NCBI GenBank assembly: GCA_028293775.1
Contig: JAQGOD010000312.1
Span: 1 to 8,275, forward strand
DNA from: Gammaproteobacteria bacterium
GTDB lineage: Bacteria > Pseudomonadota > Gammaproteobacteria > Steroidobacterales > Steroidobacteraceae
Reading direction: 5' to 3'
DNA length: 8,275 nt
Shown piece after piece: positions 1-7,926 of this stretch. The position numbers and the translations under genes were made by a program. The stretch's first letter is position 1, and every line of letters starts with the position of its first letter. The notes beneath the pieces are model-generated. The model saw nothing but the letters and a program-made list of their open reading frames with translations. It was not told the origin of the DNA and searched no databases.

Positions 1-1891
1 CGGGCCGGCTCTCGCCCTCCAGCTTTGCTGCCCCGGCCCAACTTTGCCAGCGCCCTTCCGCATTCACATACGTACCGGAAGTTTCGGCGAAGGAGCCGAT
101 GGGCAGCACCACGTGTACGGTGTCGCGCAAAGACTCCGGCAAGTGCGTGCCGACCGCAACGACCAGATCAGCCGATTTTAGAGCCGACGCATCGACGCCT
201 AAATCGTTGGCGGGATCGATACCGCCGAAAAGCACGTAGGCTTTGAGCGGTGAGTCCAACATCTGGCGAGCCGACAGGCCCGGCGTCTGAAGCGGAGCGC
301 CGCCCGACCCACGATGCGGCACCGCGCCGGCGAGGTACGCACCCGCGGCATTGGCGCCTTCGGTAATGCAGCCGATGCTGGCCGCGCACAAATCCGCAAG
401 GGCGATGCTGAGAGCCTTCAATTGCGAGTACGCCGGATGGCGCTGCGCCAGGGCGCCCAAGATGACCGCGCGCCGCGTTCCATGTGAGAACGCACCGACG
501 AGGGAGCGGTGATCGTCGCTGACCCGGGCCGCTCCTACGCCCTGAGGCAGAGGCTTGCCCGCGGCACCGGCGGCGGCCTGCACCAGGGCAGTCAGTTCGC
601 CCACCATATCGTTCACGGCCGCGTAAGCGGCGATCGGAAACATATACTCAAAACGGCGCGGATTGACGAAGGCCACGTGCGCCCCGCCCTTCACCGCCGC
701 TTGGCGAATGCGATGCGCCAGCATGGGCATCTCGTGGCGCAGATCCGAACCGACGATGAGCACGCTCTCGAGGCGCCCGGCATCGGCGATCTTCATACCG
801 AGGTTGGGATAAGGCGCCTCGCTTTCTTGTGCGCGAAAATCCAGCTGCCGCAAGCGGTGATCGATGTTGTTGCAGCCTAGCCCGCGCGCAATTTGCGCCA
901 GCAAGTACAGTTCCTCGAGCGTGGCCATGGGCGAGGCAAGAAAGCCCGTTGCGGCGGGGCTCATCGCCGCGGCCTTCTGCAATCCATCAGCGGCGGCGGT
1001 GAGCGCCACTTCCCAATCAACCACCTGCAACGTGCCATTCATGCGCATCATGGGCTGCGACACTCGTTCGCTCGAATACATGCCCTCGAACCCGAAGCGA
1101 TCGCGGTCCGCGATCCACGTTTCGTTGATCTCCTCATTCTCGCGCGGCACCATGCGCAACAACCTGCCGCGCAGCACGTGTCCGTACAAGTTCGTGCCGA
1201 AAGCATCGTGCGGCGAGACCAGCGCAGCCTGAGACATTTCCCAGGCGCGCGCGTGATAGCGGAATGGTTTATTGTTGAGCGCGCCGACCGGGCACAGATC
1301 GATGATATTGGCGGACAACTCATGATCGACGCTATGTTCGATGTAAGTGCCGATTTCCATGTGCTCACCGCGGCCGGTGGCGCCCATTTGCGGGTAGCCC
1401 TGGATTTCCGCGCCGAAGCGCACGCAGCGAGTGCAATGAATGCAGCGCGTCATGTCGGTGGAAACCAAGGGCCCGATGTTCTTGTCCTTGACGACGCGCT
1501 TGCGCTCGCTGAATCGCGAAATGTCGCGCCCGTAACCTAAGGCGAGATCTTGCAGCTCGCACTCCCCACCCTGATCGCAGATCGGGCAATCGAGCGGATG
1601 GTTTATGAGTAAAAATTCCATGGTCGCGCGCTGCGCGGCAACCGCCTTGGGAGATTTCGTGAACACCTTCATGCCCTCGGCTACCGGTGTGGCGCACGCC
1701 GGCAGGGGCTTCGGCGCCTTCTCCACTTCCACCAAGCACATGCGGCAATTCGCGGCGACGGTCAATTTTTCGTGATAGCAAAACCGGGGAATATAAATGT
1801 CCGCCGGATCCGTCACCTGCATGATCATCTGGCCCTTGCGGGCCTTTAGCGCAACGCCATTGACTTCGATATTGACTGTGTCGTCTGCCAT
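1..1891 (-). CDS. nuoG: NADH-quinone oxidoreductase subunit G, 5' part (runs off window)
   Basis: Largest peripheral-arm subunit of respiratory complex I; it carries Fe-S clusters that relay electrons from NuoF/NuoE towards NuoB. I read 630 codons from the ATG at 1891 to the window edge without a stop. Residues 1-80 form a [2Fe-2S] ferredoxin-like domain with Cys38, Cys49, Cys52 and Cys66. His98 with Cys102, Cys105 and Cys111 (HPLDCPICDQGGEC) fits the His-ligated [4Fe-4S] cluster. Cys150, Cys153, Cys156 and Cys200 (CPVGAL) fit the next [4Fe-4S] cluster. From about residue 220 it becomes the molybdopterin-oxidoreductase-like domain (SPHDAFGTNLYG, PRENEEINETW, VGSDLRHEMPMLAHRIRQAA). The extra N7 cysteine set of E. 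coli and Thermus NuoG is absent. The start lies 3 bases after the nuoF stop, which suggests coupled translation; the ribosome site is weak. The C-terminal part lies outside the window. Confidence 0.95.
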   Translation of the reverse strand, partial: MADDTVNIEVNGVALKARKGQMIMQVTDPADIYIPRFCYHEKLTVAANCRMCLVEVEKAPKPLPACATPVAEGMKVFTKSPKAVAAQRATMEFLLINHPLDCPICDQGGECELQDLALGYGRDISRFSERKRVVKDKNIGPLVSTDMTRCIHCTRCVRFGAEIQGYPQMGATGRGEHMEIGTYIEHSVDHELSANIIDLCPVGALNNKPFRYHARAWEMSQAALVSPHDAFGTNLYGHVLRGRLLRMVPRENEEINETWIADRDRFGFEGMYSSERVSQPMMRMNGTLQVVDWEVALTAAADGLQKAAAMSPAATGFLASPMATLEELYLLAQIARGLGCNNIDHRLRQLDFRAQESEAPYPNLGMKIADAGRLESVLIVGSDLRHEMPMLAHRIRQAAVKGGAHVAFVNPRRFEYMFPIAAYAAVNDMVGELTALVQAAAGAAGKPLPQGVGAARVSDDHRSLVGAFSHGTRRAVILGALAQRHPAYSQLKALSIALADLCAASIGCITEGANAAGAYLAGAVPHRGSGGAPLQTPGLSARQMLDSPLKAYVLFGGIDPANDLGVDASALKSADLVVAVGTHLPESLRDTVHVVLPIGSFAETSGTYVNAEGRWQSWAGAAKLEGESRP

Positions 1892-1894
1892 GTC

Positions 1895-3217
1895 TCAAGC
1901 CGCAACGGCCGGACGGCCGTCCAAATCAGTGACGCCTTCCGTGATGGAGCGGCCCTTGTGCTCGATCATGTATTGGAATTCAGGCCTGAAGTGCTTCAGG
2001 AAACTTTGTACCGGCCAGGCGGCCGCATCGCCCAAGGCGCAGATAGTGTGTCCCTCGATGCGGTTGGCCACATCGAGCAGCAATCCTAAATCTTCACTGC
2101 GTCCTTCGCCGGCGATGATGCGTTTCAGCATTCGATCGAGCCAACCGGTGCCCTCGCGGCACGGGGTGCACTGGCCGCAGGACTCCGACATATAGAAACG
2201 CGCCAGGCGCTCCAGCGCCCGCACCATGCAGGTGGTTTCGTCCATCACGATGACGGCGCCGGTGCCGATGGAGGAGCCGGCTTTCTTGACCGAGTCGTAA
2301 TCCATGTTGGTGCCCCACATCACGTCGCCGGGCACCACGGGACAAGAGGAACCGCCGGGAATTACCGCCTTTAGCTTGCGGCCCTTCCACACTCCGCCGG
2401 CCAGCGCCATCAACTCCTTGAAGGGAATTCCCATGGGCAACTCGAAATTGCCGGGCTTCTCGACGTGTCCGGAGACCGAGAAAATAATCGTGCCGCCGGA
2501 ATTGACCGGCCCTAACCCTGCGAACCAGGCGGCGCCCTTGCGCATGATGGTGGGCACCGACGCGAAGCTTTGCGTATTGTTGATGGTCGTCGGTTTGCCG
2601 AACAGCCCGAAATTGGCGGGGAACGGCGGCTTGAAGCGCGGCTTGCCGGGCTTGCCCTCGAGGGACTCGAGCAACGCGGTTTCCTCTCCGCAGATATACG
2701 CCCCGGCACCGATGAAGGTGTGTAGATCGAAGTCGACGCCGGAGCCTAAAATATTCTTGCCGAGCAGGCCGGCGGCGTACGCCTCGGCCAGTGCCGCTTC
2801 GAATCGCGGAATGGGTTCGGCCAAAAATTCTCCGCGGATATAGTTGTATCCCACCGTCGCCGTCATCGCGTAGCCGCCGATGGCCATACCCTCGATGACC
2901 GAGTGCGGGTTGTAGCGCAGAATTTCCCGATCATGGCAGGTGCCGGGCTCAGATTCGTCCGAGTTGCATACCGCGTATTTTTGCACCGGCGAAGTGCGGG
3001 GCATGAAGCTCCACTTCACGCCCATCGGAAATGCCGCGCCCCCGCGGCCGCGCAGTCCGGAGGCCTTCACCTCATCGATGATCTTTTCGCGCGGAGTTTG
3101 CTCGCGCAGGATTTTCTCCCACGCCTGATAGCCGCCGAATTGACGGTACACCTCGAGCGTCCACGACCGCTCGTATTTCAAGGCCTCGAATAGCACCAGA
3201 TTCTGTTCATAAGGCAT
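1895..3217 (-). CDS. nuoF: NADH-quinone oxidoreductase subunit F (NADH/FMN-binding)
   Basis: Electron entry subunit of complex I: binds NADH and FMN and carries the N3 [4Fe-4S] cluster, on the cytoplasmic tip of the enzyme. The 440-residue length is normal. The glycine-rich FMN region is GLRGRGGAAFP (residues 54-64), followed by the acidic NSDESEPGT segment (85-93) and the nucleotide-binding stretch GAGAYICGEETALLESLEG (170-188). The cluster ligands are Cys347, Cys350 and Cys353 (ESCGQCTPCREGTGW) and Cys393 (TICALGDAAA). The frame is intact, unlike the two genes just upstream. The ATG at 3217 is 13 bases after the nuoE stop, with AGGGG about 6-10 bases before it as ribosome site. It ends in TGA, 3 bases before nuoG. 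It is clearly NuoF and not a formate dehydrogenase or hydrogenase relative, given the flanking nuo genes. Confidence 0.97.
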   Translation of the reverse strand: MPYEQNLVLFEALKYERSWTLEVYRQFGGYQAWEKILREQTPREKIIDEVKASGLRGRGGAAFPMGVKWSFMPRTSPVQKYAVCNSDESEPGTCHDREILRYNPHSVIEGMAIGGYAMTATVGYNYIRGEFLAEPIPRFEAALAEAYAAGLLGKNILGSGVDFDLHTFIGAGAYICGEETALLESLEGKPGKPRFKPPFPANFGLFGKPTTINNTQSFASVPTIMRKGAAWFAGLGPVNSGGTIIFSVSGHVEKPGNFELPMGIPFKELMALAGGVWKGRKLKAVIPGGSSCPVVPGDVMWGTNMDYDSVKKAGSSIGTGAVIVMDETTCMVRALERLARFYMSESCGQCTPCREGTGWLDRMLKRIIAGEGRSEDLGLLLDVANRIEGHTICALGDAAAWPVQSFLKHFRPEFQYMIEHKGRSITEGVTDLDGRPAVAA

Positions 3218-3230
3218 CAGCGGCCCCTGC

Positions 3231-3716
3231 TCATTTCAATTCGTCCAACACGGTATCGATGATTTGCGGCGTCAAGTTCTCATGGAATACGTGATCGACC
3301 ATCATCATCGGCGCCCCGCAGCACGCCGCCAGGCATTCCTCTTCGCGCTTCAAATAAATCCGTCCATCCGGCGTGCTCTCGCCCGTTTTGATGCCGAGCT
3401 TCTTCTCGACGTAGTCCACCACCTATTGAGAGCCGCGCAGCATGCAAGAGATATTCGTGCACACGGAAATGTGATGACGCCCCACCGGCTTGGTCTCGAA
3501 CATGGAGTAGAAGGAGGCCACTTCGTACACCAGAATATTCGGCAGCTCGAGGTAGGCGGCGACGGCGTCCATCAGCTCCGGGGTCAAATAGCCATGGTTC
3601 TCATGCTGCACCGCATGCAAGGCCGCAATGACCGCGGAGCGCTTGCGGTCGGGCGGAAATTTAGCCAGCCACCGGTCGATTTCTTCTCGCACATGATCCG
3701 ATAATTTCGCGCTCAT
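3231..3716 (-). CDS. nuoE: NADH-quinone oxidoreductase subunit E, reading frame interrupted by in-frame TAG
   Basis: Complex I subunit of the NADH module, a thioredoxin-like protein that binds the [2Fe-2S] cluster next to FMN. Counting the stop as a residue, the gene spans 161 codons, normal for the family. The N-terminal helical part (residues 1-60) and the first ligand pair Cys86/Cys91 ([12 protein letters not shown]) precede a TAG at codon 98. The same frame then continues with [15 protein letters not shown] and the second ligand pair Cys128/Cys132 ([12 protein letters not shown]), ending in TGA. The stop therefore separates the two halves of the cluster site. There is no frameshift. The ATG overlaps the nuoD stop (ATGA). 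As written, the sequence gives a 97-residue fragment and possibly a 63-residue piece from the GTG at 3422. It is either a new pseudogene, a sequence error, or a gene read through. Confidence 0.85.
3423..3425 (-). other. In-frame TAG inside nuoE (codon 98)
   Basis: The minus-strand reading is GGC TCT CAA TAG GTG GTG GAC TAC. Family members usually have GS followed by two acidic or charged residues and then a hydrophobic pair here, so TAG stands at a position that is commonly Glu, Asp or Lys. TAG is one base from GAG and AAG. The codon before is CAA and the codons after are GTG GTG. Confidence 0.9.
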
Positions 3717-4966
3717 CGGTCTATCTCGCCGAAGACGATATCCTGGGTTCCGATGACGGCGACGACATCCGCGAGCATATGGCCGCGGACCATTTCATCC
3801 AGCGAGGCCAGATGCGGGAATCCGGGGGCGCGCACTTTCAGCCGGTACGGCTTATTCGCGCCATCCGATACCAGGTACACGCCCAGCTCTCCCTTCGGCG
3901 CTTCCACCGCCGCATACACCTCGCCTTGCGGCACGCAGTAGCCCTCGGTCATGAGTTTGAAGTGATGAATGAGCGACTCCATGTCGCCTTTCATCTCTTC
4001 GCGGCGCGGCGGCCGTACTTTGCGATCGTCAATCATGACGGATCCAGGATTGGCCTTGAGCCAGGCCACGCATTGCTCGATGATGCGGTTTGATTGGCGC
4101 ATCTCTTCGACGCGGACCAAGTAGCGGTCGTAGCAATCGCCGTTGACTCCCACCGGAATGTCGAAGTCCACTTTGTCGTACACGTCGTAAGGCTGTTTCC
4201 TGCGCAGATCCCATTCGACGCCGGAACCGCGCAGCATGGGGCCGGAGAATCCCAGCTGCATCGCGCGCTCGGGACTGACCACGCCGATATTGACCGTGCG
4301 CTGTTTCCAAATTCGATTGTCGGTGAGCAAGCTTTCGTATTGATCGACGCACGACGGAAAGCGCTTGGTAAAATCCAAGATGAAATCCAGCAAGCCGCCG
4401 GAGCGCCGGCTGTTCAAGCGATCCACATCCTTCTTGCTGCGCCACTGCGAGTACTGGTACTGCGGCATCGAATCAGGCAGGTCGCGATACACGCCGCCGG
4501 GACGATAGTAGGTCGCGTGCATGCGCGTGCCGGACACTGCCTCATAACAGTCCATGAGATCTTCGCGCTCGCGGAAGCAATACAGGAATACGGTCATCGC
4601 GCCGATATCAAGACCGTGCGCCCCGAGCCACATAAGATGATTCAAGATGCGGGTGATCTCATCGAACATCACGCGGATATATTGAGCACGCAGCGGCGGC
4701 TCGAGTCCCAGCAGCTTTTCGATGGCCATGACGTAGGCATGCTCGTTGCACATCATGGACACGTAATCCAATCGATCCATGTAGCCGATCGACTGATTGA
4801 AGGGCTTGCTCTCTGCGAGCTTCTCGGTCGCACGATGCAGGAGGCCGATGTGCGGATCGGCCATTTGAATCACTTAGCCATCGAGTTCCAGCACCAAGCG
4901 CAGCACGCCATGCGCGGCGGGATGCTGGGGGCCGAAATTCATGGTGTAGTTGCGGATTTCAGCCAT
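3713..4966 (-). CDS. nuoD: NADH-quinone oxidoreductase subunit D (49 kDa), reading frame interrupted by in-frame TAA
   Basis: Complex I subunit that forms the quinone-binding cavity together with NuoB. From the ATG at 4966 the frame reads [20 protein letters not shown], the N-terminal sheet with the His19 loop that lines the quinone site, then meets TAA at codon 31. Without a frame change it continues as [19 protein letters not shown], then [17 protein letters not shown] (the quinone-site Tyr is at about 68) and on to the usual C-terminus DIVFGEIDR. Counting the stop, it has 417 positions, the normal family length. The remaining intact part (3713-4873, from GTG) lacks the His loop and could not make a normal NuoD. 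The start overlaps the end of nuoC by 8 bases; the end overlaps nuoE (ATGA). Expression of a full protein would need suppression of the stop; otherwise the gene is inactive or the base is an error. Confidence 0.87.
4874..4876 (-). other. In-frame TAA inside nuoD (codon 31)
   Basis: The minus strand reads GAA CTC GAT GGC TAA GTG ATT CAA ATG. In NuoD, Nqo4 and mitochondrial 49-kDa proteins the Gly here is followed by a well conserved Glu (L-x-GE), so TAA replaces an expected GAA or GAG; it is one G-to-T change from GAA. The downstream frame is intact for 386 codons. Confidence 0.92.
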
Positions 4967-5717
4967 CGGATTTCGCGATGCTCGTGGTTGCGACCGGCGC
5001 GTTGGTCAACTGCGGGTCGTAGCGATTGTCGTGCCGGATGACCTTCGGCACCAGCACACGCGGCTCGATGGTCACGGGCTGGTAGACCACGCGTCCTTTT
5101 TCCGGATCGTAGCGGACTTCAACATTGCCCGAGAGCGGAAAATCCTTTCTGAACGGATGCCCAATGAAGCCGTAGTCGGTGAGCAAGCGGCGCAGGTCCG
5201 GGTGCCCCCTGAAGAGAATGCCGAACAGATCGAAAGCCTCGCGCTCGAACCAGTTGGCACCCGCCCAGATCGCGGTGACGGAATCGACCATGGGTTGCTC
5301 ATCATCCGCACAAAACACCCGCAGACGCAAACGTTGATTCAAGGAAATCGACAACAGGTGGTATACCACCGCAAATCGGCGCCCCGGCGGCACGGGGCCG
5401 ATGCGCTGGGCTCCGCGCGCGACGCCGCGGCTGAATCCGGACGACGTTGCGCTCTGGGTATTCCATTCGTCACGCCCGTGCGAGAGATAATCCACGCCGC
5501 ACACGTCCATGCACATTTGGAACTTCAAATCCGCGCCATCGCGCAGCGCAGAGGCAACACCCAATAGCTCATCGGCGGGCACTTCGTACGTCAATTCGCC
5601 GGTGTGATTGCCGACGCTCGCCACCTTGCCCGGCAAAGCCAACGTAATGGCTTCCGCCAACCTTTGCAGGCGGGTCGGTGTCGCAACCGCCGCCGTGACG
5701 AGCGGATCCGAACTCAT
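4959..5717 (-). CDS. nuoC: NADH-quinone oxidoreductase subunit C (30 kDa)
   Basis: Complex I subunit without cofactor that packs against NuoD and NuoB in the connecting module. It has 252 residues. The family signature lies at residues 155-195: [19 protein letters not shown], then [21 protein letters not shown], followed by [19 protein letters not shown]. Residues about 83-112 form a Gly/Ser/Arg-rich insert ([20 protein letters not shown] and on) before the core, which I associate with Xanthomonadales-type NuoC; this is a recollection, not a search. The tail after residue 230 is a low-conservation extension. The ATG overlaps the nuoB stop (ATGA), with AAGG about 10 bases upstream. It is a separate gene, not the fused NuoCD of E. 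coli. Ends in TGA 8 bases into nuoD. Confidence 0.96.
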
Positions 5718-6193
5718 CGGATAATCGCCTTGTTACGTCTGATCTTGTTCTGCAGCTGGATAATGCCGTAGAGCAGCGCCTCGGCGGTGGGCGGACACCC
5801 CGGCACATACACATCGACCGGCACGATGCGATCGCAGCCGCGAACCACGGCATAGGAATAATGGTAGTAACCGCCGCCGTTGGCGCATGAGCCCATGGAG
5901 ATCACCCAGCGCGGCTCGGTCATCTGGTCGTATACCTTGCGGAGCGCGGGGGCCATCTTGTTGACCAGCGTGCCGGCCACGATCATGACATCGGATTGGC
6001 GCGGGCTCGGCCTGAAGATGATGCCGAAGCGGTCCTGATCGTAACGAGCAGCACCGGCGTGCATCATCTCCACGGCACAACAGGCCAGTCCGAAGGTCAT
6101 CGGCCACAGTGATCCGGTCCGAGCCCAATTGATGAGCTTGTCGATGCTCGTCACTTCGAAGCCGCGCGCGGTATTGTCGGCTTCTAATCCCAT
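5714..6193 (-). CDS. nuoB: NADH-quinone oxidoreductase subunit B (N2 cluster)
   Basis: Complex I subunit carrying the terminal [4Fe-4S] cluster N2, which reduces quinone at the NuoB/NuoD interface. The 159 residues match the short bacterial form. The N2 ligands are the tandem Cys38-Cys39 ([11 protein letters not shown]), Cys103 ([18 protein letters not shown]) and Cys133 ([14 protein letters not shown]). The conserved helix [15 protein letters not shown] precedes the first pair, and [16 protein letters not shown] lies at 65-80. The ATG at 6193 overlaps the end of nuoA by 10 bases, with a good ribosome site AAAGGGG 8-14 bases upstream inside nuoA. It overlaps nuoC by 4 bases. The frame is intact and all cluster ligands are present, so the quinone-module partner of the broken nuoD still looks functional. 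Confidence 0.97.
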
Positions 6194-6552
6194 TCCAACG
6201 CCCCTTTCTTGTAGTCATAGGCCAGCGCGACCACGAGCACCAAGGCGAAAACCAGCATGGAGACGAGGCCAAAGGTACCGGTGATTTTAAGGGAAACGGC
6301 CCAAGGGAAGAAAAACGCGATCTCCAAATCGAAGACAATGAAAATAATGGCGACCAGGTAGTAGCGCACGTCGAAGCGCATGCGCGAATCCTCGAATGCC
6401 TCGAAACCGCATTCGTAGGGAGAGAGTTTTTCAGGATCCGGACGGCGCGGACCCAATATCCAACCGACGGTGAACAACGCCAGACCGAGAACCGTCGCCA
6501 ATCCCAAAAAAATCAATATCGGTAAATACTGTCGCAACATAATCGGCGCCAT
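6184..6552 (-). CDS. nuoA: NADH-quinone oxidoreductase subunit A (membrane)
   Basis: Small membrane subunit (ND3 homologue) next to the quinone cavity. It has 122 residues with three predicted membrane helices at about 9-34, 63-83 and 91-113. The conserved loop [21 protein letters not shown] contains Cys48, equivalent to the loop cysteine of mitochondrial ND3, and helix 2 carries Asp75 and Glu77 ([11 protein letters not shown]). The C-terminus KKGALEWD is typical, followed by TAG, which shows that TAG acts as a normal stop here. The start is uncertain: ATG at 6552 and ATG at 6540 ([11 protein letters not shown]) are both possible, neither has a clear ribosome site, and the second fits the usual family N-terminus better. 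It is the first gene of the nuo operon, preceded by a promoter candidate. Confidence 0.95.
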
Positions 6553-6634: not shown

Positions 6635-6719
6635 TGGTGCCGACGGCCGGACTCGAACCGGCACAGGTTGCCCCACTAGCCCCTCAAACTAGCGCGTCTA
6701 CCAATTTCGCCACGTCGGC
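6635..6719 (-). tRNA. leuU: tRNA-Leu, anticodon GAG
   Basis: An 85-base class II tRNA with encoded CCA. The acceptor stem GCCGACG (from 6719) pairs with CGTCGGC, followed by ACCA ending at 6635. The D-arm contains AAATTGGTAGACGCG. The anticodon stem CTAGT pairs with GCTAG around the loop TTGAGGG, giving anticodon GAG for CUC/CUU codons. A short variable arm follows, then the T-arm GCCGGTTCGAGTCCGGC. Its 5' end is only 5 bases after the secG stop, so it is probably cut from the secG transcript. It is not a suppressor tRNA: the anticodon cannot read UAA or UAG. The gene symbol follows E. coli usage and is tentative. Confidence 0.95.
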
Positions 6720-7143: not shown

Positions 7144-7162
7144 ACGCACGTTCGACGTACGT
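7144..7162 (-). other. Hairpin in the tpiA-secG gap
   Basis: The minus strand reads ACGTACGT, loop CGA, ACGTGCGT: 8 pairs including one G-U that would be a mismatch on the plus strand. It begins at the last base of the tpiA stop codon and ends 17 bases before the secG ATG, leaving AAAGAGA free as ribosome site. It may separate the two messages by blocking exonuclease; with no U-tract it is not a clear terminator. Confidence 0.35.
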
Positions 7163-7926
7163 TATTGACGCGCGGCCGCAGCCGCGCAAATCTGTCGAAA
7201 CTCATCCGCGCTCAACGAAGCGCCGCCCACCAATCCACCGTCCACGTCGGGCATCGCGAATAACTCTGCCGCATTGCCGGCTTTTACGCTGCCGCCATAC
7301 AGTATCCGCAATTGGCCCGCTATCTTAGCATCATGCGCCCCTATGCGGCTGCGCAGGAATGCATGCACGGCCTGAGCCTGTTCCGGCGTCGCCGTACGGC
7401 CAGTGCCTATGGCCCACACGGGTTCATAGGCCAGCACGGCGTCCTCCGCAAAGCCCCCTATGCCGAGCATGGCGATCACCGCCTCAACTTGGCGTCCCAC
7501 GACCGCTTCGGTCTGCTTCGCCTCGCGCTCTTCGAGAGTTTCCCCGACGCACAGCACCGGCTTCAAACCACCCGCAAGCGCGGCCGCAAACTTGCGCGCC
7601 ACCAACGTATCGTCCTCGTGATACCAGCGCCGCCGCTCGGAATGACCGACGATGACATAGGTGGATCCCACGTCCTTGAGCATGGCGGCGCTCACTTGAC
7701 CGGTGAACGCGCCGCCGGACTCGGCGCACACATCCTGCGCGCCCACCATGATGCGGCCATCCTCCAACACGCGGACCGCATCGGCTAAATAGACATAAGG
7801 CGGAAACACCACGATGTCGATCGGCCAGTCGGGCCGTATAGAGCGCTCCAACTCGGCCAGCAATGCCTGATTGGAGGCCTGAGACCCGTGCATTTTCCAA
7901 TTGCCCGCGACCATCGGACGACGCAT
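7162..7926 (-). CDS. tpiA: Triose-phosphate isomerase
   Basis: Interconverts dihydroxyacetone phosphate and glyceraldehyde 3-phosphate in glycolysis and gluconeogenesis, in the cytoplasm. It has 254 residues, normal for the TIM-barrel family. Active-site residues are all visible: Asn9 and Lys11 (AGNWKMHG), His95 (YVIVGHSERR), Glu168 (AYEPVWAIGTG) with the mobile loop 6 following, and the phosphate-binding GGSVKAGNA and GGLVGGASL segments near the C-terminus. The ATG at 7926 gives the standard MxxPMVAGNWKM start and has GAAGG about 10 bases upstream; a start at 7995 would add a basic, unlike leader. Ends in TAA. It lies 74 bases after glmM and 35 before secG, a common gene order in gammaproteobacteria. 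Confidence 0.97.
   Translation of the reverse strand: MRRPMVAGNWKMHGSQASNQALLAELERSIRPDWPIDIVVFPPYVYLADAVRVLEDGRIMVGAQDVCAESGGAFTGQVSAAMLKDVGSTYVIVGHSERRRWYHEDDTLVARKFAAALAGGLKPVLCVGETLEEREAKQTEAVVGRQVEAVIAMLGIGGFAEDAVLAYEPVWAIGTGRTATPEQAQAVHAFLRSRIGAHDAKIAGQLRILYGGSVKAGNAAELFAMPDVDGGLVGGASLSADEFRQICAAAAARQ

Follow-up and report, generated by a model that had tools for sequence, protein, structure and literature searches.

Two in-frame stop codons in the adjacent nuoE and nuoD genes of a gammaproteobacterial contig are most likely private to that contig and without function

Base errors and nonsense (null) alleles are ordinary, general sources of premature stop codons in single assembled contigs. 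Our search of the literature on premature stops and nonsense alleles in assembled genomes and in nuo returned no matching case among the matches listed. Two subunits of complex I are concerned here. NuoD, the 49-kDa subunit (TIGR01962, PF00346), contains a His59-Asp160 pair that is said, in an excerpt of one article, to supply protons to quinone (PMC10212512). In NuoE, the 24-kDa subunit (TIGR01958, PF01257), cysteines 92, 97, 133 and 137 of the E. coli protein are given as ligands of cluster N1a in an excerpt of another (PMC8357420). The window analyzed here, i.e. the whole stretch of 8,275 nucleotides of contig JAQGOD010000312.1, encodes close counterparts of both. All 417 codons of its nuoD align to the intact NuoD of a related locus (L108) with 97.6% identity, and its NuoE is identical at 159 of 161 residues to a protein found on other contigs (P0121).

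The nuo operon lies on the minus strand of the window in the order nuoG (in part), nuoF, nuoE, nuoD, nuoC, nuoB and nuoA, beyond which are found a tRNA-Leu gene, secG, tpiA and the end of glmM. On this strand, nuoG (2..1891) is open for its first 630 codons and continues past the window edge, and nuoF (1895..3217, 440 aa), nuoC (4959..5717, 252 aa), nuoB (5714..6193, 159 aa) and nuoA (6184..6552, 122 aa, stop codon TAG) are open. The gene for NADH-quinone oxidoreductase subunit E, nuoE (3231..3716, minus strand, 161 codons), is broken at codon 98 by an in-frame TAG (3423..3425) followed by GTG GTG, and the gene for subunit D, nuoD (3713..4966, minus strand, 417 codons), is broken at codon 31 by an in-frame TAA (4874..4876) followed by GTG. 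Both genes are free of indels, and both frames reach the normal C-terminus in colinear alignment with relatives. No frameshift or deletion was found from the partial nuoG to nuoA, the two stops being the only breaks in this part of the operon. A sequence-only reading of this DNA had reported one TAG and one TAA without indels in two adjacent nuo genes, each a single G-to-T step away from a Glu codon and with GTG next to it, in an operon with intact nuoA, B, C, F and G. Direct reading and translation, with alignment for the lack of indels, confirmed this description, nuoG being open for the 630 codons present. We also observed that codon 35 of nuoD (4862..4864, minus strand) encodes a private Met (ATG) in place of a Lys that is invariant in the 17 relatives compared, which creates a new ATG four codons past the nuoD stop.

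The closest DNA that we found is that of G066 (locus L108, 87.9% over 5.1 kb) and of one half of a G175 contig (L109, 89.5% over 3.6 kb to the window), both of which are taken to be other species of the window's genus. In a scan of species genomes, the best locus among the matches listed was that of MAG bog_1204 (77% in NuoC), and a closer one is possible; a scan of viral contigs found no relative of the window. The stops at nuoD codon 31 and nuoE codon 98 were absent from all 17 aligned relatives. Across 200 sampled genomes of the family, in which NuoE had a match in 192 and NuoD in 190 at an E value of 0.001, no stop was seen in either gene among the matches listed. Conservation of the stops in sister genomes, which the sequence-only reading had considered and which would be expected of programmed readthrough or recoding, was thus found neither in the 17 aligned relatives nor among the listed matches of the family sample.

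To place these stops among nuo genes at large, we used a survey of 99 related loci (L001-L080 and L107-L125, no two on contigs of equal size as judged by eye), which counted copies of nuo genes with at least 50% identity and considered the best alignment only. Five of the 658 copies contained a stop symbol, and four of these are natural gene ends because the sequence behind them is not the same protein. The only true internal stop (1/658) is a TAG at codon 217 of nuoG in G102 (L107, G102:C1), which belongs to the same genus as G066, and it replaces a Trp that is invariant in the other sequences shown.

Within the genus of G066, nuo genes are present in 23 of 23 genomes, and 20 encode a full-length nuoD without stops. 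Loss of complex I was considered for the three genomes without a full nuoD match and rejected, as other nuo genes are found at contig edges: nuoA and the first part of nuoB are retained at the end of a contig in G150 and G127, and nuoF and nuoG at the beginning of one in G172. A second nuo operon serving as a backup was also rejected, as a second NuoD above 50% identity occurs in only one of the 23 genomes, G175, in an apparent chimera. This 10,708-bp contig (G175:C6, L109) carries two nuo sets in opposite directions that meet inside nuoG near positions 7145-7165. Their NuoD proteins share 97.6% and 92.3% with that of the window, i.e. the sets differ in divergence, and the contig looks like an assembly chimera.

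Other unusual NuoD entries were noted among the relatives. P0027, P0066 and P0113 are 386 aa long and each starts at the residue right after the position of the nuoD stop of the window; P0066 is labelled partial by its source, and all three may be contig-end fragments. P0106 (578 aa, from a contig of 85,153 bp) is a NuoD with an apparently frameshifted C-terminus fused to NuoE.

Copies nearly identical to the window were informative for NuoE. An intact NuoE, otherwise one or two of 161 residues away from that of the window, is listed for 22 other contigs. Twenty of them, up to 169,892 bp long and from four sources, carry P0121, which differs only at residue 98 (Glu in P0121, stop in the window) and residue 99. 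The other two carry P0122, which is identical to the window at 158 of 161 residues, i.e. has one more difference than P0121. Furthermore, NuoG P0241 (contig of 11,814 bp) and P0282 (contig of 10,367 bp), treated on sequence grounds as coming from contigs other than the window, differ from it at only 2 of 629 and 3 of 556 residues, respectively, so that by its NuoG the window resembles a normal representative of the species. P0282 is predicted from Met74 only, its first 73 residues being missing, perhaps because of a contig end or another break. No NuoD more than 95% identical to that of the window was found among the 120 proteins listed, from a clustered database in which a same-species NuoD may be hidden. 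The case for nuoD is therefore built on other species, and same-species copies of nuoD are presumably intact.

The positions of the breaks bear on whether the subunits could still function. In alignment to the mouse 49-kDa chain, residue 4 of the window NuoD corresponds to chain residue 77, without gaps to 164. Chains of 430 residues among the same matches are numbered 33 lower, and in that numbering His19 and Asp120 of the window correspond to His59 and Asp160. The nuoD stop confines His19 to a peptide of 30 residues, apart from Asp120 in the remaining part. In NuoE, spacing places the N1a cysteines at Cys86, Cys91, Cys128 and Cys132, two on either side of the stop. Since both stops split residues that act together, the pieces alone should not work. 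The part of NuoD after the stop passes the TIGR01962 cut-off by itself (542.7 vs 459.35 bits), and the 97-residue piece of NuoE is below the TIGR01958 cut-off (113.5 vs 142.4 bits).

The stops could nevertheless be tolerated in a cell with a working complex I, either by restart at GTG (or at the ATG of nuoD codon 35) or by an ochre-type suppressor tRNA reading both UAA and UAG. We regard this as very unlikely. The codons downstream of the stops are under constraint, both stops are of the UAA/UAG kind and both precede GTG, a context found after 2 of the 15 Glu codons of nuoE and 2 of the 27 of nuoD (product 0.0099, computed post hoc); the extra ATG resulting from the Lys35-to-Met change was also noticed post hoc. 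Against tolerance, the breaks part His19 from Asp120 in NuoD and Cys86 and Cys91 from Cys128 and Cys132 in NuoE, no such stops occur in the relatives examined, and the RNA around the two stops folds no better than shuffles (z of 0.29 and -0.66). Furthermore, the only tRNA detected in the window is the tRNA-Leu (GAG; 6635..6719, minus strand), and no suppressor tRNA was found there. TAG ends nuoA and glmM, TAA ends tpiA, and all three stop codons terminate genes of the window, suggesting that the standard code is in use. It is the GTG after both stops and the private Met after the nuoD stop that keep restart or suppression from being dismissed altogether. That complex I actually works through an ochre-type tRNA or GTG restart, the latter with pieces that assemble into a complex with split quinone and iron-sulfur cluster sites, is scarcely probable. 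The sequence-only reading had ranked error and decay above leaky stops or restart, and this order holds, as support for restart is post hoc and the break positions oppose it.

We next consider the substitution spectrum. In the window, 17 private bases were counted over 3498 columns that do not vary among the relatives compared, one of the bases being G>T (the nuoD stop itself) and another C>A. The nuoE stop falls in a column that differs between relatives and is therefore left out. In eight relatives pooled, G>T or C>A account for 28 of 159 private changes, and the private-base rate ranges from 9/2438 to 33/3497, with the window (17/3498) inside this range; the figures for L109 in these counts are mixed because its contig has two nuo sets. 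Private nuoG changes at codons 372, 376 and 397 are common to P0241 and P0282 and therefore look real. The absence of a G-to-T excess among window-private changes (2/17 vs 28/159 in the relatives) argues against oxidative damage, which the sequence-only reading had offered as an example of a shared base error, and we rejected it as a common cause of both stops.

How unusual is the pair? Given one stop each in nuoD and nuoE, uniform substitution would place both at Glu codons with a probability of 0.044, compared to 0.025 for a transition-biased spectrum with assumed weights; both stops being transversions, a transition-biased spectrum of real mutations is a little less favourable than uniform error. 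Random substitution in these genes is expected to produce about 18 to 21 missense changes per stop. NuoG and NuoE together contain one contig-specific residue in 790 (NuoG Val580, which is Ile in P0241 and P0282), NuoE Val99 being left out because it is common to P0123 and P0124. From one such residue, 0.14 stops are predicted in 2175 nuo codons and the probability of at least two is 0.009, rising to 0.03 with two contig-specific residues (NuoE 99 included) and to 0.14 if the rate from one residue is taken at its 95% upper limit, figures that have to be read knowing that the window was put forward for looking odd. We found no raised rate of other contig-specific changes (1 or 2 of 790), and the private-base rate is as in relatives. 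A pair of stops in a contig that is clean elsewhere is thus improbable under isolated errors and under real neutral mutations, about equally, and because this improbability weighs equally on both, it does not favour real mutation over error. What it does speak against is a heavily corrupted contig, as well as prolonged decay.

Measures of selection gave no sign of decay. Between the window and L108, dN/dS is 0.028 for nuoD, 0.065 for nuoE, 0.023 for nuoF and 0.108 for nuoG. Since the split from L108, with the stops excluded, nuoD and nuoE each acquired 3 amino-acid changes on the window side, compared to 5 and 8, respectively, on the L108 side, with 1 per gene unassignable. Of 315 invariant columns in nuoD, the window has a private residue at 2, namely the stop and Lys35-to-Met, and of 87 in nuoE at 0; the 17 relatives have 0-4 and 0-3, respectively, a range that covers the window. 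Hence neither a raised dN/dS against L108 nor a missense excess relative to the 17 relatives indicates relaxed selection on nuoD or nuoE, and strong purifying selection on both genes implies that decay has left no trace. Decay of complex I throughout the lineage, with standing pseudogenes, could account for two breaks within one operon and is the least probable reading of all, being disfavoured by dN/dS, the purifying selection that it reflects and the intact close relatives. The suggestion made from the sequence alone that the lineage is losing complex I thus finds no support, given the low dN/dS, the intact NuoE copies and nuo genes throughout the genus.

A serious possibility, to which we give somewhat less than an even chance, is that the stops are real and very recent null alleles of one strain, in which complex I would be off and a type 2 dehydrogenase would oxidise NADH. 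Of the two stops, the first would have broken the enzyme and the second would have come by drift. NDH2_C (PF22366) is above the cut-off in 16 of the 23 genomes of G066's genus, with two in G066 itself, and a strain lacking complex I might therefore survive; nqrB was found in 0 of 23. Another species, G102, has its own stop in nuoG, at codon 217. Furthermore, nuo can be a target of selection: an excerpt of a study of evolved E. coli reports the operon hit 41 times, mainly in membrane-arm genes, and the terms "nonsense" and "stop codon" do not appear in the main text (PMC8795404). In contrast, nuoD and nuoE show no missense excess, and two neutral stops would be accompanied by about 15 contig-specific missense changes in NuoG and NuoE, where 1 or 2 were seen. 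The 22 contigs with an intact NuoE and the nuo genes of all 23 genus genomes also speak against recent nulls. As a second null in the same complex should bring no further gain, two real hits would require time, of which there is no trace, or chance.

Taken together, the stops are most likely confined, as far as seen, to this single contig and without function, reflecting either an error in the sequence or a rare allele that was broken very recently, rather than any new mechanism. We give an even chance to contig-private errors of the consensus bases. The contig, taken as metagenome-derived, would then come from a gammaproteobacterium not yet in culture, with a nuo operon that is otherwise normal and functional, and we infer that the two bases are wrong rather than real. 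The intact NuoE of P0121 and P0122, a NuoG that makes the window an ordinary member of its species, relatives without the stops and low dN/dS would all be in keeping with base error on the evidence of sequence comparison. Counting against base error, the contig is otherwise clean and its rate of private changes is as in relatives. Real stops in a working enzyme would provide a striking example of a core respiratory complex made of split or suppressed subunits. Paired nonsense changes in one contig can resemble biology and call for caution, as the near-identical sequences and the spectrum point here to a contig-private event.

Compared to the known 49-kDa subunit, the window copy of NuoD differs by the TAA at codon 31 and by Met at Lys35, and compared to the 24-kDa subunit, that of NuoE differs by the TAG at codon 98. 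Like ordinary nonsense alleles or base errors, the window has point substitutions that are missing from relatives, without other decay. Unlike the ordinary case of a single contig, it has two of them, located in neighbouring genes of the same operon and each at a Glu codon that precedes GTG.
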